Shown here piece after piece: positions 25,015-60,723 of a stretch of 60,723 nucleotides of DNA. Location: positions 1-60,723 of the forward strand of contig DAIDKH010000018.1 of NCBI GenBank assembly GCA_027450145.1, read 5' to 3'. Made by a program: the position numbers and the translations under genes. Every line of letters starts with the position of its first letter. Position 1 is the first letter of the stretch. The notes under the pieces are model-generated. The model had not been told where the DNA came from and ran no database searches. It was given only the letters and a program-made list of their open reading frames with translations. The stretch is from Chthonomonadaceae bacterium (GTDB lineage Bacteria > Armatimonadota > Chthonomonadetes > Chthonomonadales > Chthonomonadaceae).

Positions 25015-25044
25015 TTGACACTAACCGTAAGACGTGATTATAAT
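25015..25044 (+). promoter_or_regulatory. Consensus promoter of the CRP-like gene
   Basis: TTGACA (25015-25020), 18-bp spacer, TATAAT (25039-25044). Both hexamers are perfect, giving a leader of about 58 nt before the ATG at 25109. Confidence 0.8.
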
Positions 25045-48188: not shown

Positions 48189-48656
48189 TCATTCGGCCGT
48201 ATAGTAATCCCATGAAGTATCGGATGCCTGTCGCAAGAAGGAGATCTGCCCGTTATGGTAGCCGTATTCCGCGGCCATATTAAACAGCGCTGCCAGTACC
48301 GGTCGTTCTGATCCAAATAGCTGTACTGGCGTATCGAGAGGTTTCGACTCATAGTTATGTCTGTAGTGATTCTCAAAGTTGACTAGCGATGCATCCAGCA
48401 GATCTAGCAATTTCTCTGGGCTAGCCTGTCGCTCTTCCTCACTCACCAGGGCATCCCACTGGAAATTCATGGGGTCGTCCATCTTAACGATTGCGGAGCG
48501 GTCGACGATGAGCAGATGTATAAGAGTTGTACGGATAGTGTTGAGTTGCTTGTAGGGCTGGTAGTCCCACTGGGCATCATGCAGGTCGTTCGTAAGTCGG
48601 CGCAGTTCTGTTCGCTGCGCACGTAGCTGGGCCAATGCGAGTTCAAATATCGACAT
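48189..48656 (-). CDS. DinB/YfiT-like metal-binding four-helix protein
   Basis: Protein of 155 aa with a DinB-like four-helix-bundle pattern. Helix 2 has RTTLIHLLIVDRSAI, where His begins the usual HxxxxD-type metal site, and helix 4 has EYGYHNGQISFLRQAS, the typical HxxQ/H signature. Many relatives are thiol-S-transferases (bacillithiol, mycothiol) or of unknown role. GGGAGAAAGAGA lies just before the ATG. Confidence 0.72.
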   Translation of the reverse strand: MSIFELALAQLRAQRTELRRLTNDLHDAQWDYQPYKQLNTIRTTLIHLLIVDRSAIVKMDDPMNFQWDALVSEEERQASPEKLLDLLDASLVNFENHYRHNYESKPLDTPVQLFGSERPVLAALFNMAAEYGYHNGQISFLRQASDTSWDYYTAE

Positions 48657-48960: not shown

Positions 48961-49027
48961 TGTGAATTAATTCACACCAAAGTTGCGGAATATTTCACAT
49001 CGTCGATTCGTTTAATTGCAATATAAT
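48961..49027 (+). promoter_or_regulatory. Cassette A promoter with CRP-type sites
   Basis: Perfect CRP-type dyad TGTGAATTAATTCACA (48961-48976), then a half-degenerate site TGCGGAATATTTCACA (48984-48999) 23 bp away, then TATAAT (49022-49027). The centre of the second site is 30.5 bp before the -10, so it sits near -42, a class II position; no good -35 hexamer is present. Confidence 0.75.
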
Positions 49028-49071
49028 AGAAATGTGTTGACGAGGTGCGCAGCAACTGGCCAGGCCGCCAG

Positions 49072-49098
49072 TCCTCTGCGTCCTCTGCGTCCTCTTGG
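49072..49098 (+). repeat. 9-bp leader repeat, cassette A (2 units plus partial)
   Basis: TCCTCTGCG twice (49072-49080, 49081-49089), then TCCTCTTGG (49090-49098), in the untranslated leader. Just downstream, ATGs at 49103, 49113 and 49132 fall in three different frames; the third starts the secreted protein, with AGGA 10 nt upstream. Confidence 0.85.
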
Positions 49099-49131
49099 AA
49101 GGATGACAGATTATGAAAGGATCTTACTGCT

Positions 49132-49599
49132 ATGCAGAGTTTGCATATCACCCGAGTGAGAGCAACATTCGCCCATTGTGCTATTCCGGCACTTGTCGCC
49201 CTCTTCGCTGTCCTGCTGTTCGTTTCCCCCCGCACCGCTAAAGCACAGAGCGGTAGTTGGATGTGGACGAGCCAATCCCCTAATACGCTCACCTACAGCA
49301 GATATTGGAAGCAGAAAATCTTCAACGTGGGTAACAGCAACTACTCACTAACCGAGTCGGCCAGCGGCGTAACTCAGTACATCTACGCGCTGTGGGCGAT
49401 AGATTACAACACAGGTGCTTCCTTTGGTTACCAGGAATCCGGGCAGGGAATGAATGCAATTCACACCTTTACGCTCGTTAACGAGGCTCCCGGCCTTTAC
49501 TACTGGACCGCCGCCCTTTCAGATGATGCTGCGCCGCTCACTGTCGTTCCTAATTACCAGGAACCTTGGGGACCTTTCGGGAATGTTAACGGGCCGTAG
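49132..49599 (+). CDS. Small exported cassette protein (type S), cassette A
   Basis: Secreted protein of 155 aa, family not recognised. Signal peptide: VRATFAHCAIPALVALFAVL, with cleavage near TAKAQ (residue about 38). The mature part is beta-rich and Trp/Tyr-rich, with the core AIHTFTLVNEAPGLYYW. All four small cassette proteins share the AIHxFTxVN core, suggesting one beta-sandwich fold. The start is set by AAAGGA 10 nt upstream and by the signal peptide. First gene of the four-gene cassette A. Confidence 0.8.
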   Translation: MQSLHITRVRATFAHCAIPALVALFAVLLFVSPRTAKAQSGSWMWTSQSPNTLTYSRYWKQKIFNVGNSNYSLTESASGVTQYIYALWAIDYNTGASFGYQESGQGMNAIHTFTLVNEAPGLYYWTAALSDDAAPLTVVPNYQEPWGPFGNVNGP

Positions 49600-49668
49600 A
49601 TAGCATGTGAAAGAAGCGCTGGGGTTACTTACTAGGCCGCAGCGCTTCAACACTCGAGGAATAGAGCG

Positions 49669-50607
49669 GTGACGAAAGTGAAATGGCATCATGTCGTACC
49701 TATAGTGACTGTTGCGATGGCAGCCTGCCATGCATCTGCCGCAGGCCCGAACGCGGCCCACACTTCTAAGCCTAAGATAGTGGCCACCTCTTGGGAGGAG
49801 GAAGCGGTCACCTCGGGGGTCCATAATTCAAAACAAATCACATTTTTTACTAAACCAAACGGCCCGATTGCTTTAGGGTTCGTAGTTAGCGACAAATTCC
49901 ACCTATTCGGATTCAGACCATCTAACGAAGGAGTACATTGGGTCTACATTGAGCCCGGTGTGGTTGCACCATCATATCCAGACATCAAGAAGAGGGTACG
50001 ATACCTCGTCAAAAAGTACGGTCTCAGGACAGTTGAGCGGAAGGCGCACTGGCCGGTAGGAACGCCCGGATTCGTTGCTGCAGACGGCAAACAGGATTTG
50101 CCGCCGCGTTATTATGCAGGTAAAACTGTACATTCGATCTCCGGCCTTAAACTTCTAGCGAAGACAACGTTTCGCGGACATAAATGTGAGGTGTATGGCG
50201 CCAGGCCAGTTTCTAGAGGTGTCCAGGGCACCACGCAACAAATATTTTATTGGGATCCAAATTCGGGGTTTATATGGAGGGCTGTTTATCTGCGAATCCC
50301 GACGCCTGGCGGCATCGTGCCACCATCTAAAACATCCGTGAATATTGAATTCATAAAGCAAATCCACCGAATTCCACGGCAATGCCTACGGTTTCCACCA
50401 GGCACCAAATACATATTGCCTACCTGCATGGGCCATATTACCCCACCGCCAGGCGCCGCACGGTTAAATCTTCCGAAGTATTCCGCCTTCCTCGGGTACT
50501 CCGTCGAGGCTCGTACAAAATCTACTGAGACCGCTCCCCACCGCAGTACCTTAACGCCGCCGACAGGCAAGACCTTAGGCAATGGAAATATAAGGATTAA
50601 ACGTTAA
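49669..50607 (+). CDS. Exported LolA/RseB-like cassette protein (type P1), cassette A
   Basis: Secreted protein of 312 aa; no exact family recognised. GTG start, GAGGA 9 nt upstream. Signal peptide (VVPIVTVAMAACHASAAG; the Cys could also be a lipobox). Layout: a WEEEAV-type strand near residue 40, the AHWPVGTPGF loop, GHKCEVY, YWDPNSGFIWRAVYL, then RIPRQCLRFPPGTKYILPTC and a glycine-rich end. The pattern C...D...IWR...RFPxGT recalls LolA/RseB-like periplasmic proteins. Its closest relative is the next gene, and both share an almost identical 36-nt segment. Confidence 0.7.
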   Translation: MTKVKWHHVVPIVTVAMAACHASAAGPNAAHTSKPKIVATSWEEEAVTSGVHNSKQITFFTKPNGPIALGFVVSDKFHLFGFRPSNEGVHWVYIEPGVVAPSYPDIKKRVRYLVKKYGLRTVERKAHWPVGTPGFVAADGKQDLPPRYYAGKTVHSISGLKLLAKTTFRGHKCEVYGARPVSRGVQGTTQQIFYWDPNSGFIWRAVYLRIPTPGGIVPPSKTSVNIEFIKQIHRIPRQCLRFPPGTKYILPTCMGHITPPPGAARLNLPKYSAFLGYSVEARTKSTETAPHRSTLTPPTGKTLGNGNIRIKR

Positions 50608-50661
50608 CCTCATTCAATACCCGACTCTGCGGATATCAAACCGGTCAATGGAGGCGTTTCA

Positions 50662-51525
50662 ATGTCTAAGCCCTTTATAGGATTCGCTACTTACTTGATG
50701 TTCGTTGCTTCAGCTCTGCCCCTCGACGCTGCCGCGGGCTTAAAGGTGACCCACACTAGTAAGCCCAAGGTGGTGACGACCTATTGGGAAGAGGCCATCG
50801 TTGTGCCCGGAGCGCTCAATCTGGATATCGTCACCTATTACACCAAACCAGGTGGACTAGAAACCACAGGAGGGATTGTACGCGGTAAATTCCGACTACT
50901 GGATTACAGGGCAGCAACAGAAAGTCCTTTATGGAGCTTCGCACAACCTGGCGTGCCGCGCGGTACGCTGACCATCGATTGGAGCAATATTTATCGCGCC
51001 ACGCAACAACTTGTGCGAAAAATAGGGTTGGCAGCCGTGGAGAGGAAGGCTGGCTGGCCCGTTGGAAGACCGGGGTTTGTGGAGGCCAGGACCCGTCCGC
51101 AACCACCGCAGATTAATGGCGTTGGTGAGTACATGCGCTCGATGAAGGGCTTAACAGCGAAAAAAGACGTGTTCTTCCACGGGCATAAATGTGAGGTCTT
51201 AATGAGCAGCCATGCCGCCCATCTGGATCGCCATCGAAAGACAATCTACTATGTGGACACAAAAACGCACTTTATATGGAGAGAAGATGACCTCTACAGC
51301 CCGCCGCCCGGCACAATTCAACCGCCCAGCAGGTCGACCGCATACGTGGCTTTCAACCGCCAGGTCACTCGTATACCTGCCAAATTCCTGCGGTTTCCCC
51401 CAGGAACCAAATACATATTGCCTACCTGCATGGGCCATATTGCCACTCCGCCAGGCGCCGTACGCTTAATCCTTCCAAAGGATTCCGCGTTTTTCGGGTA
51501 CTCCATCAAGATTCGCATCAAATGA
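50662..51525 (+). CDS. Exported LolA/RseB-like cassette protein (type P2), cassette A
   Basis: Secreted protein of 287 aa, a tandem paralog of the preceding gene. Signal peptide to about ALPLDAAAG; GGAGG lies 8 nt before the ATG. Shared landmarks: TSKPKVVTTYWEEA, AGWPVGRPGF, FHGHKCEV, YYVDTKTHFIWREDDL and RIPAKFLRFPPGTKYILPTC. The two genes share the DNA stretch around 50405-50440 and 51407-51442 (ACCAAATACATATTGCC onward) without mismatch. Duplicated only in cassette A. Confidence 0.7.
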   Translation: MSKPFIGFATYLMFVASALPLDAAAGLKVTHTSKPKVVTTYWEEAIVVPGALNLDIVTYYTKPGGLETTGGIVRGKFRLLDYRAATESPLWSFAQPGVPRGTLTIDWSNIYRATQQLVRKIGLAAVERKAGWPVGRPGFVEARTRPQPPQINGVGEYMRSMKGLTAKKDVFFHGHKCEVLMSSHAAHLDRHRKTIYYVDTKTHFIWREDDLYSPPPGTIQPPSRSTAYVAFNRQVTRIPAKFLRFPPGTKYILPTCMGHIATPPGAVRLILPKDSAFFGYSIKIRIK

Positions 51526-51717
51526 AATGAGAGAGTTCCTCGCGCAAGGACCTCAACGCTGCCAGCCGGCAAGACTTCGAGCAATGTTTGCGCGAGAGTA
51601 GACCGGTATCTCCACTTAAAACATGATTGTCCATGTTTGGGACCGTTTGGCGCGGTTTAATTTGGCATCAACCTTTCAGCGCTAATTGGGACCGCCGACC
51701 CTCAGGAGATTGATTTC
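51526..51717. other. Spacer between cassette A genes
   Basis: About 190 bp between the type P2 gene and the large gene, longer than the other junctions of the array. Near 51540-51590 it still resembles the C-terminal coding end of the P1 gene (CCGGCAAGACTT compared with CAGGCAAGACCT), so the P2 gene probably lost its last residues through an early stop. Confidence 0.45.
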
Positions 51718-53400
51718 GTGACCAACACCGCACCAAAGTTCGTCATCGCAATGGTGGCCTTCACCCTTGCCCCAACAATTTGCTGTGCAACATCGCGAGG
51801 TGTGCCCGATACCGACAGAAGGCTGATCAAACAAGTTCATATAGCCTCGAGCAACAGTTCGCTTGCCAGTACTGCAACAGCGCTAAGTACTCAAACTGGA
51901 GTTCCATTAACCGTTGATAAGAGCCACAAGGGTTTGCATGACATTATCTACGCGTCGCATATCCCTGCCCGCAATGTAATGATCGCCATAGCGTGGGCTC
52001 ATCATATGACCTGGCGAAAGCTGGGCCACGGCTACATCCTCACGCAGACCACCCTCCAGCAAAAAACTGAAATGCTACAGGTAGATCGCGTTGCGCAGCG
52101 GCGTGCACTCTATACCCGTCTAGCTGCCGGTGCGATTGCCAATGCATTGGAGACGTTCGTTATGAAAAACCAGGCCGGTAACCCCGTCAGTGACCTAATT
52201 CACGATATGGATACTGCGACCTTTAACGCCTTGTGTCTTATGGGAACACGGCAAATGGCTGCCTATCCGGTCGGCGGAAGCGCCCACGTATTTCGGAATT
52301 ATCTCTTCGGCGTCATGACCTTTCGGCAGTTAGCCGCGGTTACGGGAATGACAACTGCCAAACTTTATAAGTTTCTGGTGTCACACGCAATAAGGGTACC
52401 AGCATTTATTGCCCCACGGACGATCTCTGAGCTAACTTATGGGATATTTGTTTACGACGGTATCGTGAACTTTGCAGTTATTTCTCATGGTAACACCAAT
52501 ATTTGGTGGACCACCCCAATAGCGATGCGAAAGTATATAACAAACTTTGATATCAACGATAATGATACCGATCCACAAGTAGTTAAGCTCCTGCCACACG
52601 CCCACTTCGACCTAACCGAACCCCTGCCTGAGCGGCTTACCGAGCCTTCCCTTCATTTTACTACTTCGCAATACTTACCCACTCTCATGAAAGAATTTCA
52701 CACCGCTACTGGCGCCACAGTGGTATGCACGCGGTTCATTAACAGCATCGCAACCAGGGTACAAGGGTTACTCACCTACCATGATAAGTTTGCACTCCCA
52801 GATGCAGTTGGTGAGGTTGACCGCGCTTTTGGATACCACTCTGCATGGTTTGGAGGGATGCTGGTAAGTAGGACAACTGACCCAGGGCCAAACATCGCGT
52901 ACGAACCGCCCCTGGGGTTGGTAACGCGTATGGCCAAGTTTGCCGAAGGCAAGGGCTCAATGTCAATGAATGACGTGCGTAGTTTAGCGGACATGACGCA
53001 CCCGGCGTGGACAAACCTGTGGTCTCACGCAGTGGCAGAAAAGGTCTTTCATTCAAACGGCGCCGACATTGGACCCAAGTGGCGCGTCGCATTCATGAAG
53101 CTGTTTGCTTCGCTGAAACCCGCGCAGTTGGCGGCTGCCGAAAGCCCTGCCGGCATACCTGCCAGCCAACTCTCCGCCACTCAGTTGACTCAGCTTATCC
53201 TCGCCACAGACATGGGGCCGCTGCCCGTCCATCCGCGCGTTGTACCTACCGGTCTGCACGCTGGATTCCACGTACATGTCATTGGCACTAACCGCGCCGT
53301 TAAGACTATCCACTTCATAGCGGCCTACCCCTACCTGGGAAAACTGCGCGTGACGCCCTGGAACTTTATCGCAAAAATGAAAAGAACTCTATCTAATTAG
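51718..53400 (+). CDS. Large exported cassette protein (type L), STN-like, cassette A
   Basis: Secreted protein of 560 aa, family not recognised. GTG start, AGGAG 9 nt upstream; signal peptide ending near PTICCATS. Mature start RGVPDTDRRLIKQVHIAS leads into an STN-like segment (about 37-110: SLASTATALSTQTGVPLTV ... MIAIAWAHHMTWRKLG ... YILTQ), the small domain at the front of secretins and TonB receptors. A second STN-like segment lies near 320-395 (LPTLMKEFHTATGATVVCTR, then GYHSAWFGGMLVSRTTDPG). No membrane barrel or secretin domain follows. Central part GTRQMAAYPVGG, FRNYLFGV. Last gene of cassette A. Confidence 0.72.
   Translation: MTNTAPKFVIAMVAFTLAPTICCATSRGVPDTDRRLIKQVHIASSNSSLASTATALSTQTGVPLTVDKSHKGLHDIIYASHIPARNVMIAIAWAHHMTWRKLGHGYILTQTTLQQKTEMLQVDRVAQRRALYTRLAAGAIANALETFVMKNQAGNPVSDLIHDMDTATFNALCLMGTRQMAAYPVGGSAHVFRNYLFGVMTFRQLAAVTGMTTAKLYKFLVSHAIRVPAFIAPRTISELTYGIFVYDGIVNFAVISHGNTNIWWTTPIAMRKYITNFDINDNDTDPQVVKLLPHAHFDLTEPLPERLTEPSLHFTTSQYLPTLMKEFHTATGATVVCTRFINSIATRVQGLLTYHDKFALPDAVGEVDRAFGYHSAWFGGMLVSRTTDPGPNIAYEPPLGLVTRMAKFAEGKGSMSMNDVRSLADMTHPAWTNLWSHAVAEKVFHSNGADIGPKWRVAFMKLFASLKPAQLAAAESPAGIPASQLSATQLTQLILATDMGPLPVHPRVVPTGLHAGFHVHVIGTNRAVKTIHFIAAYPYLGKLRVTPWNFIAKMKRTLSN
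53092..53153 (+). repeat. 62-bp patch identical to 56421-56482
   Basis: The segment from TTCATGAAGCTGTTTGC to AAAGCCCTGCCGG is identical in the large genes of cassettes A and B, while flanking sequence differs clearly. It codes for the FMKLFASLKPAQLAAAESPA region. Suggests recent gene conversion. Confidence 0.85.
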
Positions 53401-53451
53401 CCATCAGGCGAAACAAACTGTGCCACTACGCACAAACTACTGGCGCAAAGG

Positions 53452-53518
53452 TGTGAAATAATTCACAACAGAAGTGTGAACTATTTCACACCAACAATTT
53501 GTTTAATTGCAATATACT
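53452..53518 (+). promoter_or_regulatory. Cassette B promoter with two CRP-type sites
   Basis: Two perfect TGTGA-N6-TCACA dyads, TGTGAAATAATTCACA (53452-53467) and TGTGAACTATTTCACA (53475-53490), 23 bp apart, followed by TATACT (53513-53518). The second centre is again 30.5 bp from the -10. Similarity to cassette C begins about 22 bp upstream, near 53430. Confidence 0.8.
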
Positions 53519-53562
53519 AGAAATGTGTTGATGAGGTTCGCGGTATTCCGGCAGCATGCCGA

Positions 53563-53607
53563 TCCTCTGCGTCCTCTGCGTCCTCTGCGTCCTCTGCGTC
53601 CTCTCGG
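53563..53607 (+). repeat. 9-bp leader repeat, cassette B (4 units plus partial)
   Basis: Four perfect TCCTCTGCG units (53563-53598), then TCCTCTCGG. Two more units than in cassettes A and C, so copy number varies between otherwise near-identical leaders. The conserved start block follows, with ATGs at 53612, 53622 and 53641. Confidence 0.9.
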
Positions 53608-53640
53608 AAGGATGACAGATTATGAAAGGATCTTACTGCT

Positions 53641-54063
53641 ATGCAGAGTTTACGTAACTCTCTCGATGCGTCTACCGCACGTCGCCACTTCCATGCGGTA
53701 TTTGCGCTTGTTGCTTTGGGGATTGTAGCCTTAATGGCCCCACGACCCGCTGCTGCCGAGCAGGCGTGGATTAGTGCATCGAGTATTGCACCAGGATCAC
53801 ACGTCGCGCTGAACGGGAAGTACACACTTACCGTAACGGGTAACGCTGGCCCCAACGGTGTCTACACATTGAACCTCATGGACGACACAACGGGCGGCCA
53901 GTACAGTTGGTCTGCCCATGGAGTTGGCCCCTCGGCGATTCATTCCTTTACCGTGGTCAATCAGGCCGACGGATCCTATTGGTGGACGCCCGGTATGGCA
54001 GACGCATACGATCATACCCTTATCTGGTACTACCAGATGTACGGCGCATTTACAACTCCTTAG
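53641..54063 (+). CDS. Small exported cassette protein (type S), cassette B
   Basis: Secreted protein of 140 aa. Signal peptide with core FALVALGIVALMAP, cleavage near AAAEQ. Mature part: TLTVTGNAGPNGVYTLNLMD, then GVGPSAIHSFTVVNQADGSY and a Trp/Tyr-rich end. It shares the AIHSFTVVN core with the other small proteins but differs strongly elsewhere, unlike its nearly identical leader. First gene of cassette B. Confidence 0.8.
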   Translation: MQSLRNSLDASTARRHFHAVFALVALGIVALMAPRPAAAEQAWISASSIAPGSHVALNGKYTLTVTGNAGPNGVYTLNLMDDTTGGQYSWSAHGVGPSAIHSFTVVNQADGSYWWTPGMADAYDHTLIWYYQMYGAFTTP

Positions 54064-54132
54064 GTCGTCCGTTTCGCGAAGAGGCGGCCAAAACTGCCTC
54101 TTCGCCCTCTTTATGCGAAAGGCCCTGTCGCC

Positions 54133-55035
54133 ATGAAAACCTGCCGATTTTCACACCACATTTGCCTGGCTCTGATACTCTTCGTGTTCAGCACGGTCAT
54201 ATGCGCAGCTACTGATGTCACCACCACGAAGGTCACCTATTGGGAGTCCAAAACCCATTTTAACGGCCCTTCACAATACTCGTATCTGGACTACTTCTCG
54301 TCTAACCCGCTGGGACCACATGTTCAAATCTATATTCACGACGGTAAGTCCACAGTGTTCTACCTTTTACAGAATGGAATCAAATGGGTAATCATAGGTC
54401 ACACAGCAAAAATAGACATGCCCGAACTCGTCGCACGAATTAAGGTGCTAATCAAGCGATTAGGCAAAAAGCGCGTGAAGCAGCTCTCATACTGGCCGGT
54501 AAATGAACATGACTATCCGTTTAGTCGGCGAACGTTTTTTCAGCCAACCATCACCACTGGCATGTATATAAAAGACACCAGTAACCTCAATCCTGTGCGG
54601 CGCGCAAGTTACCTGGGGCATGCATGCCTGGTGCTTCGGAGTCGGCCGGGTCCCGGCGATAACGGAAACAACTACTTCGACTACTGGGTGGATATGCGTT
54701 CTCATATGGTTTGGCGTGTGGATTATATCTTTCTGCCCGCACCGGGCAATGCTGCACCACCTTCACGACAAACAAGCCGCATACTTTGGCTTAAGCAGAT
54801 CGATCACATTCCTGCGCGGCTACTCAGGTTCCCTTCAGGCACGCGCGTTATTGTGCCAACTTGCATGGGTAACATAGAGGTGCCCATGGGCGGTACGCAC
54901 ATGCAACTTCCAGCTGACGCTGCATTCCTCGGATTCTCGTTAAAACCTGTGTTGGCAAGCATTCGCAAACTCAACCCTGCGAACAAGCCCGAGATTGCTC
55001 CCAACACCGGTGCAGCACACAAGGAGGAGAGATGA
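54133..55035 (+). CDS. Exported LolA/RseB-like cassette protein (type P), cassette B
   Basis: Secreted protein of 300 aa. Signal peptide LALILFVFSTVICAAT. Landmarks match the family: VTYWESKTHF near the start, LSYWPVNEHDYPF, YLGHACLVL, YWVDMRSHMVWRVDYIFL, then HIPARLLRFPSGTRVIVPTC and FLGFSLKP. Only one copy here, unlike cassette A. The end overlaps the large gene start (ATGA at 55032), indicating coupled translation of the two. Confidence 0.72.
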   Translation: MKTCRFSHHICLALILFVFSTVICAATDVTTTKVTYWESKTHFNGPSQYSYLDYFSSNPLGPHVQIYIHDGKSTVFYLLQNGIKWVIIGHTAKIDMPELVARIKVLIKRLGKKRVKQLSYWPVNEHDYPFSRRTFFQPTITTGMYIKDTSNLNPVRRASYLGHACLVLRSRPGPGDNGNNYFDYWVDMRSHMVWRVDYIFLPAPGNAAPPSRQTSRILWLKQIDHIPARLLRFPSGTRVIVPTCMGNIEVPMGGTHMQLPADAAFLGFSLKPVLASIRKLNPANKPEIAPNTGAAHKEER

Positions 55036-56741
55036 AGTACTACAGAGCCGCCGGTGCCTGTTGCCTGTTCATATCATGTGGTGCCAGCCATTGCGCCGCC
55101 AGCCAACGGGGCGTACCTGCCTCCGATCAACGCCTAATCCAACCGATCACAATTGCCTCGCGTGGAATGTCTCTACAGACAGCCCTGAGCCTCTTCTCGC
55201 GCGACACACACGTCGCCCTCGGCGTAGATTCCGCGCACCAGGGTTTTAAGGACATTCTATTCGCTAACAACTTACCTTTGCGAAACATGATGATCGCCCT
55301 GGCTTGGGCGAATAGAATGACGTGGCAGAAACAGGGTAATGGCTACCTGCTGACACAAACGCCGGGGCAGAAGGCCGTTGAGACAGCCGCCGTATGGCAT
55401 GCACACACACGCCGCCTTTTCTACCGTCATGCTCAAATTAGCTTATTCACTGCTGCCGTTCAACAGTTTGTTGCAGGACCTCAGCCCGCTAATCCCGCGT
55501 GGCAGATGCTGAATGCGATGGATGCATCTACATTAATGGCGTTGGAATCGCTGGGCGATAACACGATGGCGGTGTTTTCAGCGGGTGGCACAGCCCGAAC
55601 GTTTCGCAACTACCTGTTCGGGTTAACACCCTATGGAAGCCTCCCGGATAACGTGCAGCGCGAGTTGACCAACTACATCATATGGCAGCACAGTTCAATA
55701 TCCAAGGACCTACATTTTCCGCTGCCTGGGTATCTTACCGCGGCTTCACTCCCCTCCGACACCTTCGGCTTCTTCACATATAATGGATTCCTTAACTTCG
55801 CCATTGCCACAGGTGGCAGCGGGCACCTATGGTGGGGTCCCAACTCACTTGCTGCACGAAAGCCAATTCCAGGTTACGACATCAACAACGATGACTCGGA
55901 TCCTCGGGTGGTGAAGCTGCTTCCCAAAGCTCGGTTTGATCAGGTTGACGCACTCCCAAAGCGATTGCTCCGCCCATCGCTCCACTTTACAACTAGCCAA
56001 AATCTCGCAGATCTCATGCAGCAGATGCACACTACCACAGGCGCGGCGGTGATCTGCACACGATTTGTCAACAGTCTTTCCACCCGCTATCAGGGATTGC
56101 TCACGTATCGCAGCAAATTCACATTGCCAGATGCAATTAATGAAGTGGATCGCGCGTTTGGTTACCATTCGGCGTGGTTCGGTGGAATGTTGGTGAGCAG
56201 AACGACAGACCCCGGATCGAATATATACAACGAACCTCCCGCCGGCTTGTTAACACGTCTCTCTACTTTCGCCCTAGGCAAAGGTCCCCTGTCGCTCGTG
56301 GATATTCAGAGACTTGGAAATCTCGACTACCAACAACGAACTAATCTCTGGTGGTACGGAGCAGCGCAGAGGGCCTTTCATCGCAGCGGTTACATCATTG
56401 GCCCCAATTGGCGCTCCCATTTCATGAAGCTGTTTGCTTCGCTGAAACCCGCGCAGTTGGCGGCTGCCGAAAGCCCTGCCGGTATACCGGCAAAGCAGCT
56501 TACCGCCGCGCAGCGGATACAGCTCATTTTGGCAACAGACATGGGGCCTTTGCCCTTGCACCCCAAGCCAGTGCCTGCAGGCTTAAAGCCAGGGTTGTAC
56601 GTACACATCAATGGCACGCCAGCAGCCGTTCGAACCATCCAGTTCATAGCCGCCTACCCTTACCTGGGCAAACTGCGCGTAACCCCCTGGACCTTCATTG
56701 CAAAAATGGGCCAGAACTACCTCTCGGTAGCGAAAAAGTAA
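55032..56741 (+). CDS. Large exported cassette protein (type L), STN-like, cassette B
   Basis: Secreted protein of 569 aa. Signal peptide (ACCLFISCGASHCAAS), then RGVPASDQRLIQPITIAS and an STN-like segment (LFSRDTHVALGVD ... MIALAWANRMTWQKQG ... YLLTQ). The middle has FRNYLFGL and YDINNDDSDPRVVKLLP; the second STN-like segment is around 325-400 (LADLMQQMHTTTGAAVICTR, GYHSAWFGGMLVSRTTDPG). AAGGAGG lies just before the ATG. The C-terminal coding DNA contains both conversion patches, shared with cassette A and with the last gene. Confidence 0.75.
   Translation: MKYYRAAGACCLFISCGASHCAASQRGVPASDQRLIQPITIASRGMSLQTALSLFSRDTHVALGVDSAHQGFKDILFANNLPLRNMMIALAWANRMTWQKQGNGYLLTQTPGQKAVETAAVWHAHTRRLFYRHAQISLFTAAVQQFVAGPQPANPAWQMLNAMDASTLMALESLGDNTMAVFSAGGTARTFRNYLFGLTPYGSLPDNVQRELTNYIIWQHSSISKDLHFPLPGYLTAASLPSDTFGFFTYNGFLNFAIATGGSGHLWWGPNSLAARKPIPGYDINNDDSDPRVVKLLPKARFDQVDALPKRLLRPSLHFTTSQNLADLMQQMHTTTGAAVICTRFVNSLSTRYQGLLTYRSKFTLPDAINEVDRAFGYHSAWFGGMLVSRTTDPGSNIYNEPPAGLLTRLSTFALGKGPLSLVDIQRLGNLDYQQRTNLWWYGAAQRAFHRSGYIIGPNWRSHFMKLFASLKPAQLAAAESPAGIPAKQLTAAQRIQLILATDMGPLPLHPKPVPAGLKPGLYVHINGTPAAVRTIQFIAAYPYLGKLRVTPWTFIAKMGQNYLSVAKK
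56453..56581 (+). repeat. 129-bp patch nearly identical to 60595-60723
   Basis: Against the last large gene only two of 129 bases differ (positions equivalent to G/T and C/T within ACCGGC and ACCGCC), although the genes diverge widely upstream. The second copy is cut by the window edge, so the patch may continue. Confidence 0.85.
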
Positions 56742-56792
56742 CCATAGCGCGAACTAGACAGAACTGCTGGGCACAAATTACTACCGCATAGG

Positions 56793-56859
56793 TGTGAAAT
56801 AATTCACAACAAAAGTGTGAACTATTTCACACCAACAATTTGTTTAATTGCATTATAAT
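56793..56859 (+). promoter_or_regulatory. Cassette C promoter with two CRP-type sites
   Basis: Perfect dyads TGTGAAATAATTCACA (56793-56808) and TGTGAACTATTTCACA (56816-56831), then TATAAT (56854-56859). The spacing is identical to cassette B. The two dyad sequences equal those of cassette B exactly. Confidence 0.8.
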
Positions 56860-56895
56860 AGAATCGTGTTGATGAGGTGCGCAGCAACTGGCCAG

Positions 56896-56922
56896 TTCTC
56901 TGCGTCCTCTGCGTCCTCTTGG
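56896..56922 (+). repeat. 9-bp leader repeat, cassette C (2 units plus partial)
   Basis: TTCTCTGCG (56896-56904), TCCTCTGCG (56905-56913), TCCTCTTGG (56914-56922). The start block follows with ATGs at 56927, 56937 and 56956 in three frames. Confidence 0.85.
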
Positions 56923-56955
56923 AAGGATGACAGATTATGAAAGGATCTTACTGCT

Positions 56956-57396
56956 ATGCAGAGTTTGCAATTCACTCGCGCGATCGCTAACTTTACCCGC
57001 CGCCTTGCCGCGAGCGCACCAGTCGCTGTATTCGTTGTGCTGGTGTTCGCCACACCCAGTTCCGCTAAGGCGCAATCCCGAGTTTTTTTCTCCAGCGCAC
57101 CGGCTCCAGGGACCATAGAGCCAATCGGACAGAATTACGAGTTAACAGTGCAGGCTTACGATGAGTTTCAGGACATAAATGCCCTAGGCGTAAACGACGT
57201 TACTACAGGTGGGCACGTTCTAGGTTGGAAGGCGGTCGCTTGCGGACCAGGCGCAATTCACGTGTTCACCGTCGTTAACCAAGCACCACCGCCGCCAGGT
57301 TGGAGCGGCTTTCTTTGGCAAGCTGACATGCAATCGTGTTTAAATCCTACTGTTTGGTTATCGACTTACTCCACGGCAGGACTTTATCCGATTTAG
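56956..57396 (+). CDS. Small exported cassette protein (type S), cassette C (orphan)
   Basis: Secreted protein of 146 aa. Signal peptide with VAVFVVLVFATPSSAKAQ. Mature part starts RVFFSSAPAPGTIEPIGQNY, followed by ACGPGAIHVFTVVNQAP and a Trp-rich SGFLWQAD and STYSTAGLYP end. Close to the next small protein (same FFSS-PxPGTxEPIG start and STYSTAGLYP end). It has the standard promoter-leader but no P or L gene of its own; the next gene is another S gene without the leader. Confidence 0.8.
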   Translation: MQSLQFTRAIANFTRRLAASAPVAVFVVLVFATPSSAKAQSRVFFSSAPAPGTIEPIGQNYELTVQAYDEFQDINALGVNDVTTGGHVLGWKAVACGPGAIHVFTVVNQAPPPPGWSGFLWQADMQSCLNPTVWLSTYSTAGLYPI

Positions 57397-57725
57397 GATG
57401 ATTTGTGGATCTGGAGCATGATTGGAATGACCCGGATCCACAACAGTTGGTCTCGAATGAAAGCACGGTGCTACGACGTTGCTATGCTTAACCAATTATC
57501 ACGTAAGAACAATGTCCCGTCGCTTGGATTATTGCAAGGGACGCATTTTGTTCGATTTGCTCGAGATTTTGGTTCAATAACGGCAAATTATTAAGGCTGG
57601 CTGCTGAGCATGAGATAACCTTCCAGTGGGTCCTCAATATTCGCCAAATCTGCATCTTTAGTACGCCTGCAACTGCTTTGTTCGATTAATTTGAATACCG
57701 TACGAGTCGATAGGAAGTGTCCACA
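57397..57725. other. Intergenic spacer between S genes
   Basis: About 330 bp with no confident gene; an open frame at 57403-57594 lacks a ribosome site and any signal. No CRP-type dyad or 9-bp repeat is found. The start of the next gene has TAGGAA 10 nt upstream, the same spacing as in the leadered S genes. Confidence 0.4.
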
Positions 57726-58151
57726 ATGGCCATCGTGCAACACAATTTTCAACAACGCGTAGCAATCTGCGCAATTCTATTTTTGTTTTTACTTACGTTT
57801 TCGGCGATTGGCAACGCTCACGCCCAAACGCCTACCCAAGTGTTTTTCTCCAGCTGCCCAACACCGGGTACAGTCGAACCAATTGGACATGTGTACCCCC
57901 TGTTTGTCCAGGGAACCGACTCCTTCGGGGTGGCGTCGTTGGGGGTATTCGACATTACAACAAACGGACCGGTCATTGGATGGTCCGCTCAAGGGTGTGG
58001 TCCCGGGGCGATTCATGAGTTTACTGTGGTAAATGAGGGGCAGCCGCCAAGTGGTTGGTCTGGATTTTTGTGGGAAGCAGAAATGCAGCAGTGCGTCGAT
58101 ATTGGATTTTGGTTTTCCACATATTCGACCGCCGGTTTATACCCCACATAG
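57726..58151 (+). CDS. Small exported cassette protein (type S), cassette D
   Basis: Secreted protein of 141 aa. The ATG at 57726 is preferred over a GTG at 57717, giving a clean signal peptide (VAICAILFLFLLTFSAIGNAHA) and AGGA 10 nt upstream. Mature part VFFSSCPTPGTVEPIGHVYP, then GCGPGAIHEFTVVNEGQPPSG and STYSTAGLYP, making it the closest relative of the orphan S gene upstream. It lacks the CRP-site leader, so it may depend on upstream transcription or a different promoter. First gene of cassette D. Confidence 0.8.
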   Translation: MAIVQHNFQQRVAICAILFLFLLTFSAIGNAHAQTPTQVFFSSCPTPGTVEPIGHVYPLFVQGTDSFGVASLGVFDITTNGPVIGWSAQGCGPGAIHEFTVVNEGQPPSGWSGFLWEAEMQQCVDIGFWFSTYSTAGLYPT

Positions 58152-58209
58152 GTCGGATCCGAATTTGAGGGCCTCGGAGGAAATGATGGCCCTCATAGGA
58201 GTGCCCAAC

Positions 58210-59145
58210 ATGAGAATAAAACCTAAACCCATTGTAGCGTTCCTAACTGCCGCCCCATTGGTGGTGGTCAATTTTAATGCTGCCTGCGCTCGCACCACAT
58301 TGAAACCACATGGCAACGTTAGGTACTGGAAGCGAATGATTGTTACTCATCGATTCAATGGCGCCGAGATCACTACTCTAACCTATTACAGCACAGATCC
58401 ACATGGCCCTATCATGAGCGAAGCGCTACAACACGGCAAGATGAGCCAATTTCTACTGGCGCCAAATGGTATGTCCGGTCTCTTATGGGATGAAGCAGGT
58501 AACTCGGCAAATCTGGATTTCTTTTCTGTGGTCAAGCTGGTTAAACTGCGATCGCAGCAGATTGGCTATGCAAAGGTAAAGAAACTATCTGGATGGCCCG
58601 CGGATATTCATCCATTTGTGGCTAGCCCACATTTCAGGATCCCTGCACCTCCGCGTTTCTACGCAAGCGAAATTCCAAAATCTGTTTCGTCACTTCAGAG
58701 AGTGGGTGCTTCGGTTTTTGAGGGCCATCAATGCCTCATTTTACAACAACCCGCGATCAAACTGGGTAGCGCAGGCAACATCATAGACCGCTTCTGGTGG
58801 GATGTCCACACACACTACATCTGGAAGGAAGAAGACACTAACTATCCAGCACCCAATAGCCCCAAGCCACCCAGTCGACAAGTTACCTACGTCAAGTGGG
58901 TGCGCCCGGTGAAGCGATCAGCGGTAGATGTCTTCAGGTTTCCCGCTGGTACGCGAGTCGTTGTACCAGGTATTCTTGGAAAACTACCGGTACCTCCTGG
59001 CGGCATCAAAATAAAGCCCCAGGGTGATTCCAGTGCATACCTTGGACTATCCTTCACAGCACAACTACGCTACCTGGAAAGCGTCAAGGGCACCAAAAAC
59101 GAAGTCCATTTTTACAAACCAGGACACGTTCCAAAACACCCATAG
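58210..59145 (+). CDS. Exported LolA/RseB-like cassette protein (type P), cassette D
   Basis: Secreted protein of 311 aa. The ATG at 58210 has GGAG 8 nt upstream and yields a signal peptide (IVAFLTAAPLVVVNFNAACA); open frame upstream overlaps the S gene and is not used. Landmarks: VRYWKRMIVTH, LSGWPADIHPF, FEGHQCLIL, FWWDVHTHYIWKEEDTN, DVFRFPAGTRVVVPG and YLGLSFTAQ. The Cys of the PTCMG motif in the other P proteins is replaced (PGILG). Confidence 0.72.
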   Translation: MRIKPKPIVAFLTAAPLVVVNFNAACARTTLKPHGNVRYWKRMIVTHRFNGAEITTLTYYSTDPHGPIMSEALQHGKMSQFLLAPNGMSGLLWDEAGNSANLDFFSVVKLVKLRSQQIGYAKVKKLSGWPADIHPFVASPHFRIPAPPRFYASEIPKSVSSLQRVGASVFEGHQCLILQQPAIKLGSAGNIIDRFWWDVHTHYIWKEEDTNYPAPNSPKPPSRQVTYVKWVRPVKRSAVDVFRFPAGTRVVVPGILGKLPVPPGGIKIKPQGDSSAYLGLSFTAQLRYLESVKGTKNEVHFYKPGHVPKHP

Positions 59146-59182
59146 AGTTGCACTCGTAGAATATCAAAGGAGCCTTGTGCCC

Positions 59183-60723
59183 ATGCATGGCAAGATTGGT
59201 TGGTTACATGTGTTCGGTTTGCTGCTCTGCTCTTGTCCGGCATGGGCAGCAACCAGCCAGCGTGGTGTCCCCTCTAGCGACCGCCGATTGCTAACCCCGG
59301 TCACTATCGTCGCACGATCTATCACGCTGCGAAATGCACTCGCCCAGATGTCTGCACAATCGCACGTAGAGCTTACTGTGCAGAAAAGCCAGGCAGGTTT
59401 TCATGACATCCTGTTGGCACATAGCCTGACCCTTAGAAATATGATGATAGGCATCGCCTGGGCCAACCGAATGACATGGACGCAAACGGGGTCAGGTTAC
59501 AAGTTAGTCCAATCCGCTCAGCAGAAGGCGGCGCAGATCGACGAGATACGACAGACAAAGCGACAATCTGCATTCTTCGCAGAAACGCTCGCTCAAACCT
59601 ACCTGGCTTCCATTCAGCGCTTCATTGCGAAGGATAACCTGCACAATCCTGCAACCACCTTTCTGCGTTCCATGGACATAGACACACTCAACGCGCTGGC
59701 ATCCACAGCAAACAGACAGTTACCCGCCTTTCCCGCAGGCGGCAATGCCAACTTCTTTCGCAACTACCTTTTCGGCATTACAAGATTCAAGGACCTCTCT
59801 GCTGCGAATAAAAGGCTTATTGTCAACTACTTTGGGGGGCAGCGAACCGTAATGGGCACCGTACCCAATCTGCTTAGACAGGAGTCGCAGTTCCTCAACG
59901 AAGATTTTGGCTTCTACACACAAGATGGTCAACTCTACCTCGCGGTGATAGGACCCCACAACGGGTCTGTTTGGTGGCCCAACAATTTCGTCGCAGATCG
60001 AAAATACCTCGTGGGATACGACATCAACGACGACAACACAGACCCAAGGGTGGTGAAGCTGCTGCCAAAAGCTCATTTCGATCTCACCGAACCATTGCCC
60101 GCCCGCCTAACTCACCCAACGCTGGTGCTCAAGACGTCGGAATATCTGCCCAATCTGATGGCCCAGCTCTACCATGCAACCGGTTCCCCCGTTATCTGCA
60201 CGAGATTTGTAAACAGCATGCACACGCGCATTCAGGGACTATGGACATTTGAGGACAAGTTTCCCTTAACAGAAGCCGTTCGCGAGGTCGATAGAGCCTT
60301 CGGCTACCACTCCGCCTGGTTTGGCGGTATGCTTGTGAGCAGAACAACCGACCCCGGGCCTAATATCCTCAATGAGCCACCGGCTGGCCTGGTAACCCGC
60401 ATGGCCGCGTTTGCACTCGATAAAGGGCCTATGTCATTAAACGATGTGCATATCATGGCAGGAATGACACACAAACAGTGGGTCGATTTGTGGCAATCTG
60501 CCGTAGCTGAAAAAGCATTTCATCGAATCGGCTACGAAATTGGCCCCAATTGGCGCGCTGCTTTCATGAAGCTGTTCGGCTCGCTAACAACCGAGCAGTT
60601 GGCGGCTGCCGAAAGCCCTGCCGGTATACCTGCAAAGCAGCTTACTGCCGCGCAGCGGATACAGCTCATTTTGGCAACAGACATGGGGCCTTTGCCCTTG
60701 CACCCCAAGCCAGTGCCTGCAGG
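59183..60723 (+). CDS. Large exported cassette protein (type L), STN-like, cassette D, cut by window end
   Basis: Runs open to the last base, about 513 residues so far; by comparison about 40-50 more are expected. Signal peptide WLHVFGLLLCSCPAWAAT, then RGVPSSDRRLLTPVTIVA and an STN-like segment (LAQMSAQSHVELTV ... MIGIAWANRMTWTQTG). Middle: FRNYLFGI, YDINDDNTDPRVVKLLP; second STN-like segment with LPNLMAQLYHATGSPVICTR and GYHSAWFGGMLVSRTTDPG. AAAGGAG lies 10 nt before the ATG (4 nt before an in-frame GTG at 59177). The last 129 bp match cassette B closely. Confidence 0.75.
   Translation, partial: MHGKIGWLHVFGLLLCSCPAWAATSQRGVPSSDRRLLTPVTIVARSITLRNALAQMSAQSHVELTVQKSQAGFHDILLAHSLTLRNMMIGIAWANRMTWTQTGSGYKLVQSAQQKAAQIDEIRQTKRQSAFFAETLAQTYLASIQRFIAKDNLHNPATTFLRSMDIDTLNALASTANRQLPAFPAGGNANFFRNYLFGITRFKDLSAANKRLIVNYFGGQRTVMGTVPNLLRQESQFLNEDFGFYTQDGQLYLAVIGPHNGSVWWPNNFVADRKYLVGYDINDDNTDPRVVKLLPKAHFDLTEPLPARLTHPTLVLKTSEYLPNLMAQLYHATGSPVICTRFVNSMHTRIQGLWTFEDKFPLTEAVREVDRAFGYHSAWFGGMLVSRTTDPGPNILNEPPAGLVTRMAAFALDKGPMSLNDVHIMAGMTHKQWVDLWQSAVAEKAFHRIGYEIGPNWRAAFMKLFGSLTTEQLAAAESPAGIPAKQLTAAQRIQLILATDMGPLPLHPKPVPA

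Follow-up and report, generated by a model that had tools for sequence, protein, structure and literature searches.

We identified on contig DAIDKH010000018.1 of a soil bacterium of the family Chthonomonadaceae (phylum Armatimonadota) a tandem array of genes for exported proteins that could form a Crp-regulated envelope module. The window, that is, the whole stretch of DNA analysed, is the complete contig C18 (60,723 bases), one of 168 contigs that make up a 4.14-Mb genome resembling a metagenome-assembled genome (MAG), and the array covers positions 48,961-60,723 of its forward strand. Only three types of gene are found in this region: S, for a small secreted protein; P, for a protein of predicted LolA/RseB fold; and L, for a putative tandem STN/N0 protein. 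Our best reading is that a Crp-type activator turns on these genes and that S is handled or sensed in the periplasm by its partners P and L. In its more specific form, to which we give a probability of about 0.45, P and L would bind, hold or place S at the envelope. The domains and the regulation are well supported; the biochemical role is an inference.

The genes lie on the forward strand in the order S1-P1a-P1b-L1, S2-P2-L2, S3 and S4-P4-L4, giving four S, four P and three L genes. We delimited them as open reading frames (ORFs) and assigned them by profile search, by profile comparison (L1 and L2) or, for P2, by the matches of an AlphaFold2 (AF2) model to MucB, RseB and LolA structures. The first set comprises S1 (155 amino acids [aa], 49132..49599), P1a (312 aa, 49669..50607), P1b (287 aa, 50662..51525) and L1 (560 aa, 51718..53400). 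The second holds S2 (140 aa, 53641..54063), P2 (300 aa, 54133..55035) and L2 (569 aa, 55032..56741), with the P2 and L2 reading frames overlapping by 4 nucleotides (nt). S3 (146 aa, 56956..57396) stands alone and is followed by S4 (144 aa, 57717..58151, with an alternative ATG at 57726), which has no operators or leader of the kind described below, P4 (58183..59145, its start uncertain within 58183-58210) and L4 (59183..60721). The contig ends inside L4, cutting its C-terminus and leaving the array incomplete. A preliminary description of this DNA had proposed such an array from the sequence, and the ORFs, their order and the repeats are as it described, with S3 as the set reduced to a single gene. 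Its claim of a fixed order holds for S-P-L in the three sets that carry P and L; the number of P genes varies, being one or two in the array and up to three in a relative's set. A heuristic based on hydropathy and cleavage motifs predicted, as had been proposed, an export signal in all 11 array proteins and no further membrane segments in any of them.

Conservation and co-inheritance of the gene sets

We searched 17 Chthonomonadaceae genomes with profiles of S, P and L. Here, G000 is the genome of the window, contigs of other genomes are given in the form G0xx:Cn, and numbered loci (such as locus L006) are sampled loci rather than L proteins. Some 20 L loci were recovered (with most of the profile matched, or cut by contig ends), and P adjoins L in all of them. 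S is present at nearly all, the exceptions being G004:C294 (no S), contig C1 of G000 (a remnant) and loci at contig ends; variants of the gene order are L-S-P in G013 and L-P in G004. This recurrence in other genomes, together with the 52-54% identity among L1, L2 and L4, argues that the array is not a product of chance. The preliminary description had made its proposal depend on such co-occurrence, and it survives in that respect. A scan with a narrower alignment returned 7 loci, all in genomes already identified, and a wide alignment held no conserved stretch usable for a genome scan. No relatives of L were found in viral contigs.

Whether built from S, P or L, the trees divide the cassettes into the same three types (1, 2 and 3/4), and each of them joins the type 4 set of genus g9 (G010:C70) to that of the window. 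The sets have thus been inherited together, and the three types predate the split of the genera. Ratios of nonsynonymous to synonymous substitution rates (dN/dS) between orthologs were 0.09-0.25 where computable, so that all three genes are under purifying selection; positive selection on S was rejected at its dN/dS of 0.09-0.23. The diversification proposed in the preliminary description is therefore old and shows no antigen-style positive selection at the gene level. The same values make an array of polymorphic toxins with immunity proteins, or of immune-evasion antigens, highly improbable. Diverged small secreted proteins in tandem behind a common 5' module would fit such an array, but we found no toxin-like motif or immunity-type partner.

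The window genome carries more sets of this kind. Contig C96 has an S-L set with the leader type of the array, in which the mature part of S differs and P is absent. Contig C9 (locus L174, 3515-5980) has a 233-aa secreted-looking protein followed by two single-STN proteins, also without P, an arrangement that resembles an S-L set whose L is divided between two genes. Because P is missing from both, S and L appear to be the core of the system. On contig C1, a remnant of S with a large internal deletion (locus L006, 3600-3930) precedes an intact P-P-L, whereas two relatives retain a complete S. The remnant is preceded by a tandem repeat of another kind (CGAGCGCTTTAATTTAC). Degenerate pieces of P and S, with no L, were also seen at G010:C49:3462-4637. 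The lone S3, the C1 remnant and these pieces could be taken as signs of a decaying paralog array with no function as a unit. We consider this very unlikely, because S, P and L are alike under purifying selection, the matched sets are co-inherited and their promoters are conserved.

Synonymous divergence (dS) between G000 and G001 or G002 was about 0.8-1.4 for most array genes and 0.3-0.4 for the C1 set, with P1b as an exception (0.43); the higher values of the array may reflect recombination or a faster rate of change. By inspection, DinB-like genes adjoin both the array (48189-48656) and the C1 set (locus L006, 7569-8093), which is probably a coincidence.

Predicted folds of P, L and S

No Pfam or NCBIfam family reached its cut-off with S, P or L, whether array proteins or relatives, in agreement with the earlier view that the genes are of an undescribed type. 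An AF2 model of P2 built from 16 sequences (predicted local distance difference test score [pLDDT] 84.9) has LolA-type strands and helices. The best Foldseek matches of the model were MucB, RseB and LolA (probability 1.00, E from 7.7e-6 for MucB to 1e-4), and VIA-align gave Z scores of 10.8 to the Thermus protein 2yzy and 9.6 to MucB. By this modelling, P is a protein of the LolA/RseB (beta-clam) fold, as the preliminary description had proposed. Curated LolA and RseB models stayed below cut-off against P (the best were MucB_RseB at 0.024 and LolA_like at 0.09, with one member each; NCBIfam gave none). Proteins of the LolA fold family range in role from the carriage of lipoproteins and lipids to the control of an anti-sigma factor by RseB (PMC6363788), and the fold of P therefore leaves its role unfixed. 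Genes for RseA-type anti-sigma factors or sigma-E were absent next to P in the array and in the relatives' cassettes recovered by S, P and L profile matches.

The domain structure of L was approached through a profile of its N-terminal domain (65 sequences, phylum-wide). The profile matched the N0 domain of PilQ (4ar0, E 0.0014) and, more weakly, the N0 domain of GspD (E 0.037) and the signalling domain of a PupA-type transducer (2a02, E 0.059). These matches to solved STN/N0 structures are weak but consistent and span the whole domain. A comparison by hhalign shows that the N-terminal and middle domains are homologues (probability 95.5, E 1.5e-8), and the N-domain profile also picks up a protein with clear Pfam STN matches. 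The double STN-like architecture previously suggested is thus supported, with L as a putative tandem STN/N0 protein lacking a barrel. The Pfam STN model (PF07660) found nothing at E 0.01 in the window genome, where the L of C96 scored only 0.053. Nor did 17 L members (about 560 aa) match any Pfam family, including plug, outer-membrane barrel or secretin channel domains. We rejected L as a secretin or TonB receptor on the grounds of this length and of the missing plug, barrel and secretin channel, again as first described.

The top match to the N0 domain of PilQ, with GspD next, raises the alternative that L is an accessory of type IV pili or type II secretion, docking through its N0-like domains to PilQ/GspD-type secretins with S as the substrate that is exported. 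N0/STN is, however, a general docking fold, the cassettes hold no pilus or secretion gene, and P has no counterpart in such machines, all of which makes this alternative improbable. STN domains interact both with one another and with periplasmic portions of membrane proteins (PMC11637429, PMC7186176). S, once exported, may form a single small beta-sandwich domain of immunoglobulin-like (Ig-like) type.

Crp-type promoters

Upstream of S1, S2 and S3, we identified twin palindromes of the form TGTGAAN4TTCACA (TGTGA-N6-TCACA) centred at about -65.5 and -42.5, assuming that transcription starts 7 bases past the -10 box. Pattern search and promoter comparison placed the twin operator of S1 at 48961..48999, with a perfect 16-bp palindrome at 48961-48976 (-65.5), whose first base coincides with the start of the array as given in the preliminary description, and a degenerate one at 48984-48999 (-42.5); its -10 box (TATAAT) is at 49022..49027. 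Both palindromes are perfect in the twin operator of S2 (53452..53490; 53452-53467 at -65.5 and 53475-53490 at -42.5), followed by a TATACT box at 53513..53518, and in that of S3 (56793..56831; 56793-56808 and 56816-56831), followed by TATAAT at 56854..56859. The pattern TGTGAAN4TTCACA occurs 11 times in the 4.14-Mb genome, five of them in the array, and a reversed-pattern control gave none. Six promoters in three genomes keep the -65.5/-42.5 spacing, those of G001 and G002 being the same or nearly so (at most two mismatches in ten). This placement of palindromes before a -10 box makes it well supported, at the level of sequence, that these promoters are of the Crp/Fnr type.

The candidate regulator is a Crp/Fnr-family protein encoded on the forward strand of the same contig at 25034..25804, 23 kb upstream of the array (Pfam cNMP_binding 1.9e-21, HTH_Crp_2 4.4e-11). 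It is the best HTH_Crp_2 match of the genome and could bind the array operators. Crp-type sites outside the array lie near nuoA (Oxidored_q4), efp and genes of the sigma-70, Mur-ligase (probably folC) and metallo-beta-lactamase types, neighbours that suggest a general energy or growth regulon. Such outside palindromes were seen at loci L173 (3019), L172 (2955), L171 (3012), L077 (2473), L078 (2423) and L079 (2470). The operators common to S1-S3, the Crp/Fnr gene in the window and the leader described next go beyond the preliminary description.

A repeat leader complementary to the start region

Between promoter and start codon, S1-S3 carry copies of a 9-nt repeat (CTCTGCGTC) and a conserved leader that runs up to the start ATGCAGAG. 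Leader alignment and repeat counts gave two copies for S1 (leader at 49074..49139), four for S2 (53565..53648) and two for S3 (56898..56963). Copy number ranges overall from 2 to 11: it is 2, 4 and 2 in the array and 2 in C96, 10, 10 and 11 in G001, and 6 and 6 in G002. Repeat number is alike within a genome and unlike between genomes (window and loci L081, L085, L080, L047 and L084), as if the copies were homogenised within each genome or the pattern were an effect of assembly. Downstream of the repeats, the 50 bases that lead up to ATGCAGAG hardly vary among 11 leaders from four genomes, despite the strong differences among the S proteins.

All eight bases of the start region AUGCAGAG pair with the repeat unit, which is antisense to it. 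Only 8 of the 1024 possible AUGNNNNN octamers pair fully with the repeat, and AUGCAGAG alone does so with seven Watson-Crick pairs. In predicted folds, the start region is commonly paired with the repeats in stems, the Shine-Dalgarno sequence less often. That the repeats may gate the start site of S is a hypothesis. Other explanations of the leader were tried. Rfam gave no credible match, its sole hit (E 0.77, 24 bits against a family cut-off of 140) being due to chance. Coding repeats were rejected, as in the window an in-frame TGA immediately precedes the start codon (not so in G010), and so was an upstream peptide (MTDYERILLL) as a conserved element, as its ATG is lost in G010.

L-like proteins in sigma-factor operons

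Proteins resembling L were present in 150 of the 291 Armatimonadota genomes sampled. In 5 of 53 distinct loci, a gene for an extracytoplasmic function (ECF) sigma factor falls in the same operon run, a modest enrichment (Fisher p 0.02). At locus L149 (3225-6337), an ECF sigma gene is followed by one whose single product begins with an anti-sigma-like, zinc-binding part and also has a membrane segment and an STN pair. The corresponding protein of locus L127 (4620-7543) has a cytoplasmic part, a membrane segment and an STN pair, and no zinc motif. Both are thus membrane-anchored proteins of anti-sigma type. Locus L152 combines sigma, anti-sigma-like, STN (Pfam STN 3.5e-18) and L proteins, and at locus L142 the sigma gene precedes that of a membrane protein with one STN. 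Locus L130 has, in succession, a sigma-like gene, a gene whose product is small and secreted, and a pair of L-like genes. Directly upstream of L at locus L122 is a DUF2092 protein, which we take to be a member of the LolA clan.

These architectures would fit an orphan cell-surface signalling system. In it, the RseB-like P and the STN pair of L, comparable to the signalling domains of FecA and PupB and to the anti-sigma factor PupR, would act in the periplasm as sensor for an ECF-sigma/anti-sigma pair whose genes lie elsewhere, and S would be the monitored ligand or effector, secreted or at the surface. The enrichment of sigma genes, the joining of sigma, anti-sigma-like or membrane parts and STN at loci L149, L127, L152 and L142, the best fold matches of P (MucB and RseB) and the mutual binding of transducer and anti-sigma STN domains (PMC11637429, PMC7186176) are all consistent with it. 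Set against this are the Crp-type control of the array, the 48 of 53 L-like loci with no adjacent sigma gene and the lack of any sigma or anti-sigma gene in the S-P-L cassettes observed. Sigma and membrane anti-sigma genes are absent from the array and accompany only distant relatives of L. We regard signalling as somewhat unlikely overall. The envelope or surface assembly unit of the preliminary description is a possible role, with sensing as a serious alternative raised by the L relatives in ECF-sigma/anti-sigma operons.

A model for the S-P-L module

In the model that we favour, of a Crp-activated envelope operon, a Crp/Fnr activator would bind the twin operators and start transcription, and the leader repeats, antisense to the start codon, could fold back and limit the translation of S. 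The protein would then be exported as a single small beta-sandwich domain, probably of Ig-like type, and meet its two cognate partners in the periplasm: P, which is predicted to be soluble and of LolA/RseB fold, and L, whose two STN/N0 domains would serve for docking. P and L may bind, hold or place S, or a hydrophobic ligand of S, at the envelope, with the STN domains of L docking S or its ligand to a membrane component. Duplicated, matched S-P-L sets could serve different versions of S. The partnership of P and L with S is suggested by sequence-level evidence, namely co-occurrence, trees, folds and promoters.

Several observations weigh against this model. The array has no outer-membrane component, secretin or usher, P is missing from some S-L sets, and S4 has neither operator nor leader. 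The AF2 model of L (11 sequences) was poor (pLDDT 53.5), and Foldseek returned nothing meaningful for it. Matches of S to Ig-like proteins were weak (Kre9_KNH 0.02, antibody heavy chain 0.014). The predicted fold energy of the leader is only modestly below that of shuffled sequence (z -1.2 to -2.4), and we did not take energy by itself as sufficient for accepting a leader structure. The sigma operons that contain relatives of L are as compatible with sensing as with assembly. A bolder version of the model, a new type of adjustable operon for a surface protein, in which the leader repeats are complementary to the Shine-Dalgarno region and start codon of S and slippage in their number retunes or switches each S gene on top of Crp-type activation, and P and L form a new periplasmic device dedicated to S (a holder resembling RseB and an STN pair lacking a receptor barrel), appears to us doubtful and rather unlikely.

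Comparison with known systems

The array would represent an undescribed combination of known folds, as judged from sequence comparisons. A literature search returned no description of these proteins, their combination or the leader, although it covered part of the literature and is weak evidence. The envelopes of Armatimonadota are almost unstudied, and since L-like STN pairs occur in roughly half of those sampled, the array offers access to an envelope device that is widespread in the phylum. The LolA/RseB fold and tandem STN domains, known separately from envelope stress and cell-surface signalling, are brought together here in one operon with a secreted protein, and the repeat leader yields a specific prediction, the control of translation by antisense repeats.

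Like RseB and MucB, P is predicted to be exported and to have a beta-clam fold (Z about 9-10 over 140-150 residues). It differs from them in being only 11-14% identical, in matching no Pfam family, in having no RseA or sigma-E genes nearby and in occurring in one to three copies between S and L. The domains of L resemble by profile the N0 domains of PilQ and GspD and the signalling domain of transducers, within the STN/N0 group of secretins, FecA, PupB and PupR, and some of its relatives in the phylum are fused to anti-sigma-like parts. Unlike secretins and transducers, L is made up of a pair of STN-type domains with helical linkers and a region at the C-terminus, and has no plug, beta barrel or secretin channel.

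The array palindromes, at about -65.5 and -42.5, lie near the class I and class II positions of Crp in Escherichia coli and resemble a two-site Crp-activated promoter with a candidate regulator, but these promoters are followed by a leader whose repeats are antisense to the start codon. Variable repeats in 5' untranslated regions are known, for example, from Moraxella uspA2, and the number of repeats between promoter and start likewise varies here among copies and genomes. In contrast to the uspA2 type, the 9-nt unit is itself complementary to the start region, and the variation observed is that between copies and between genomes.

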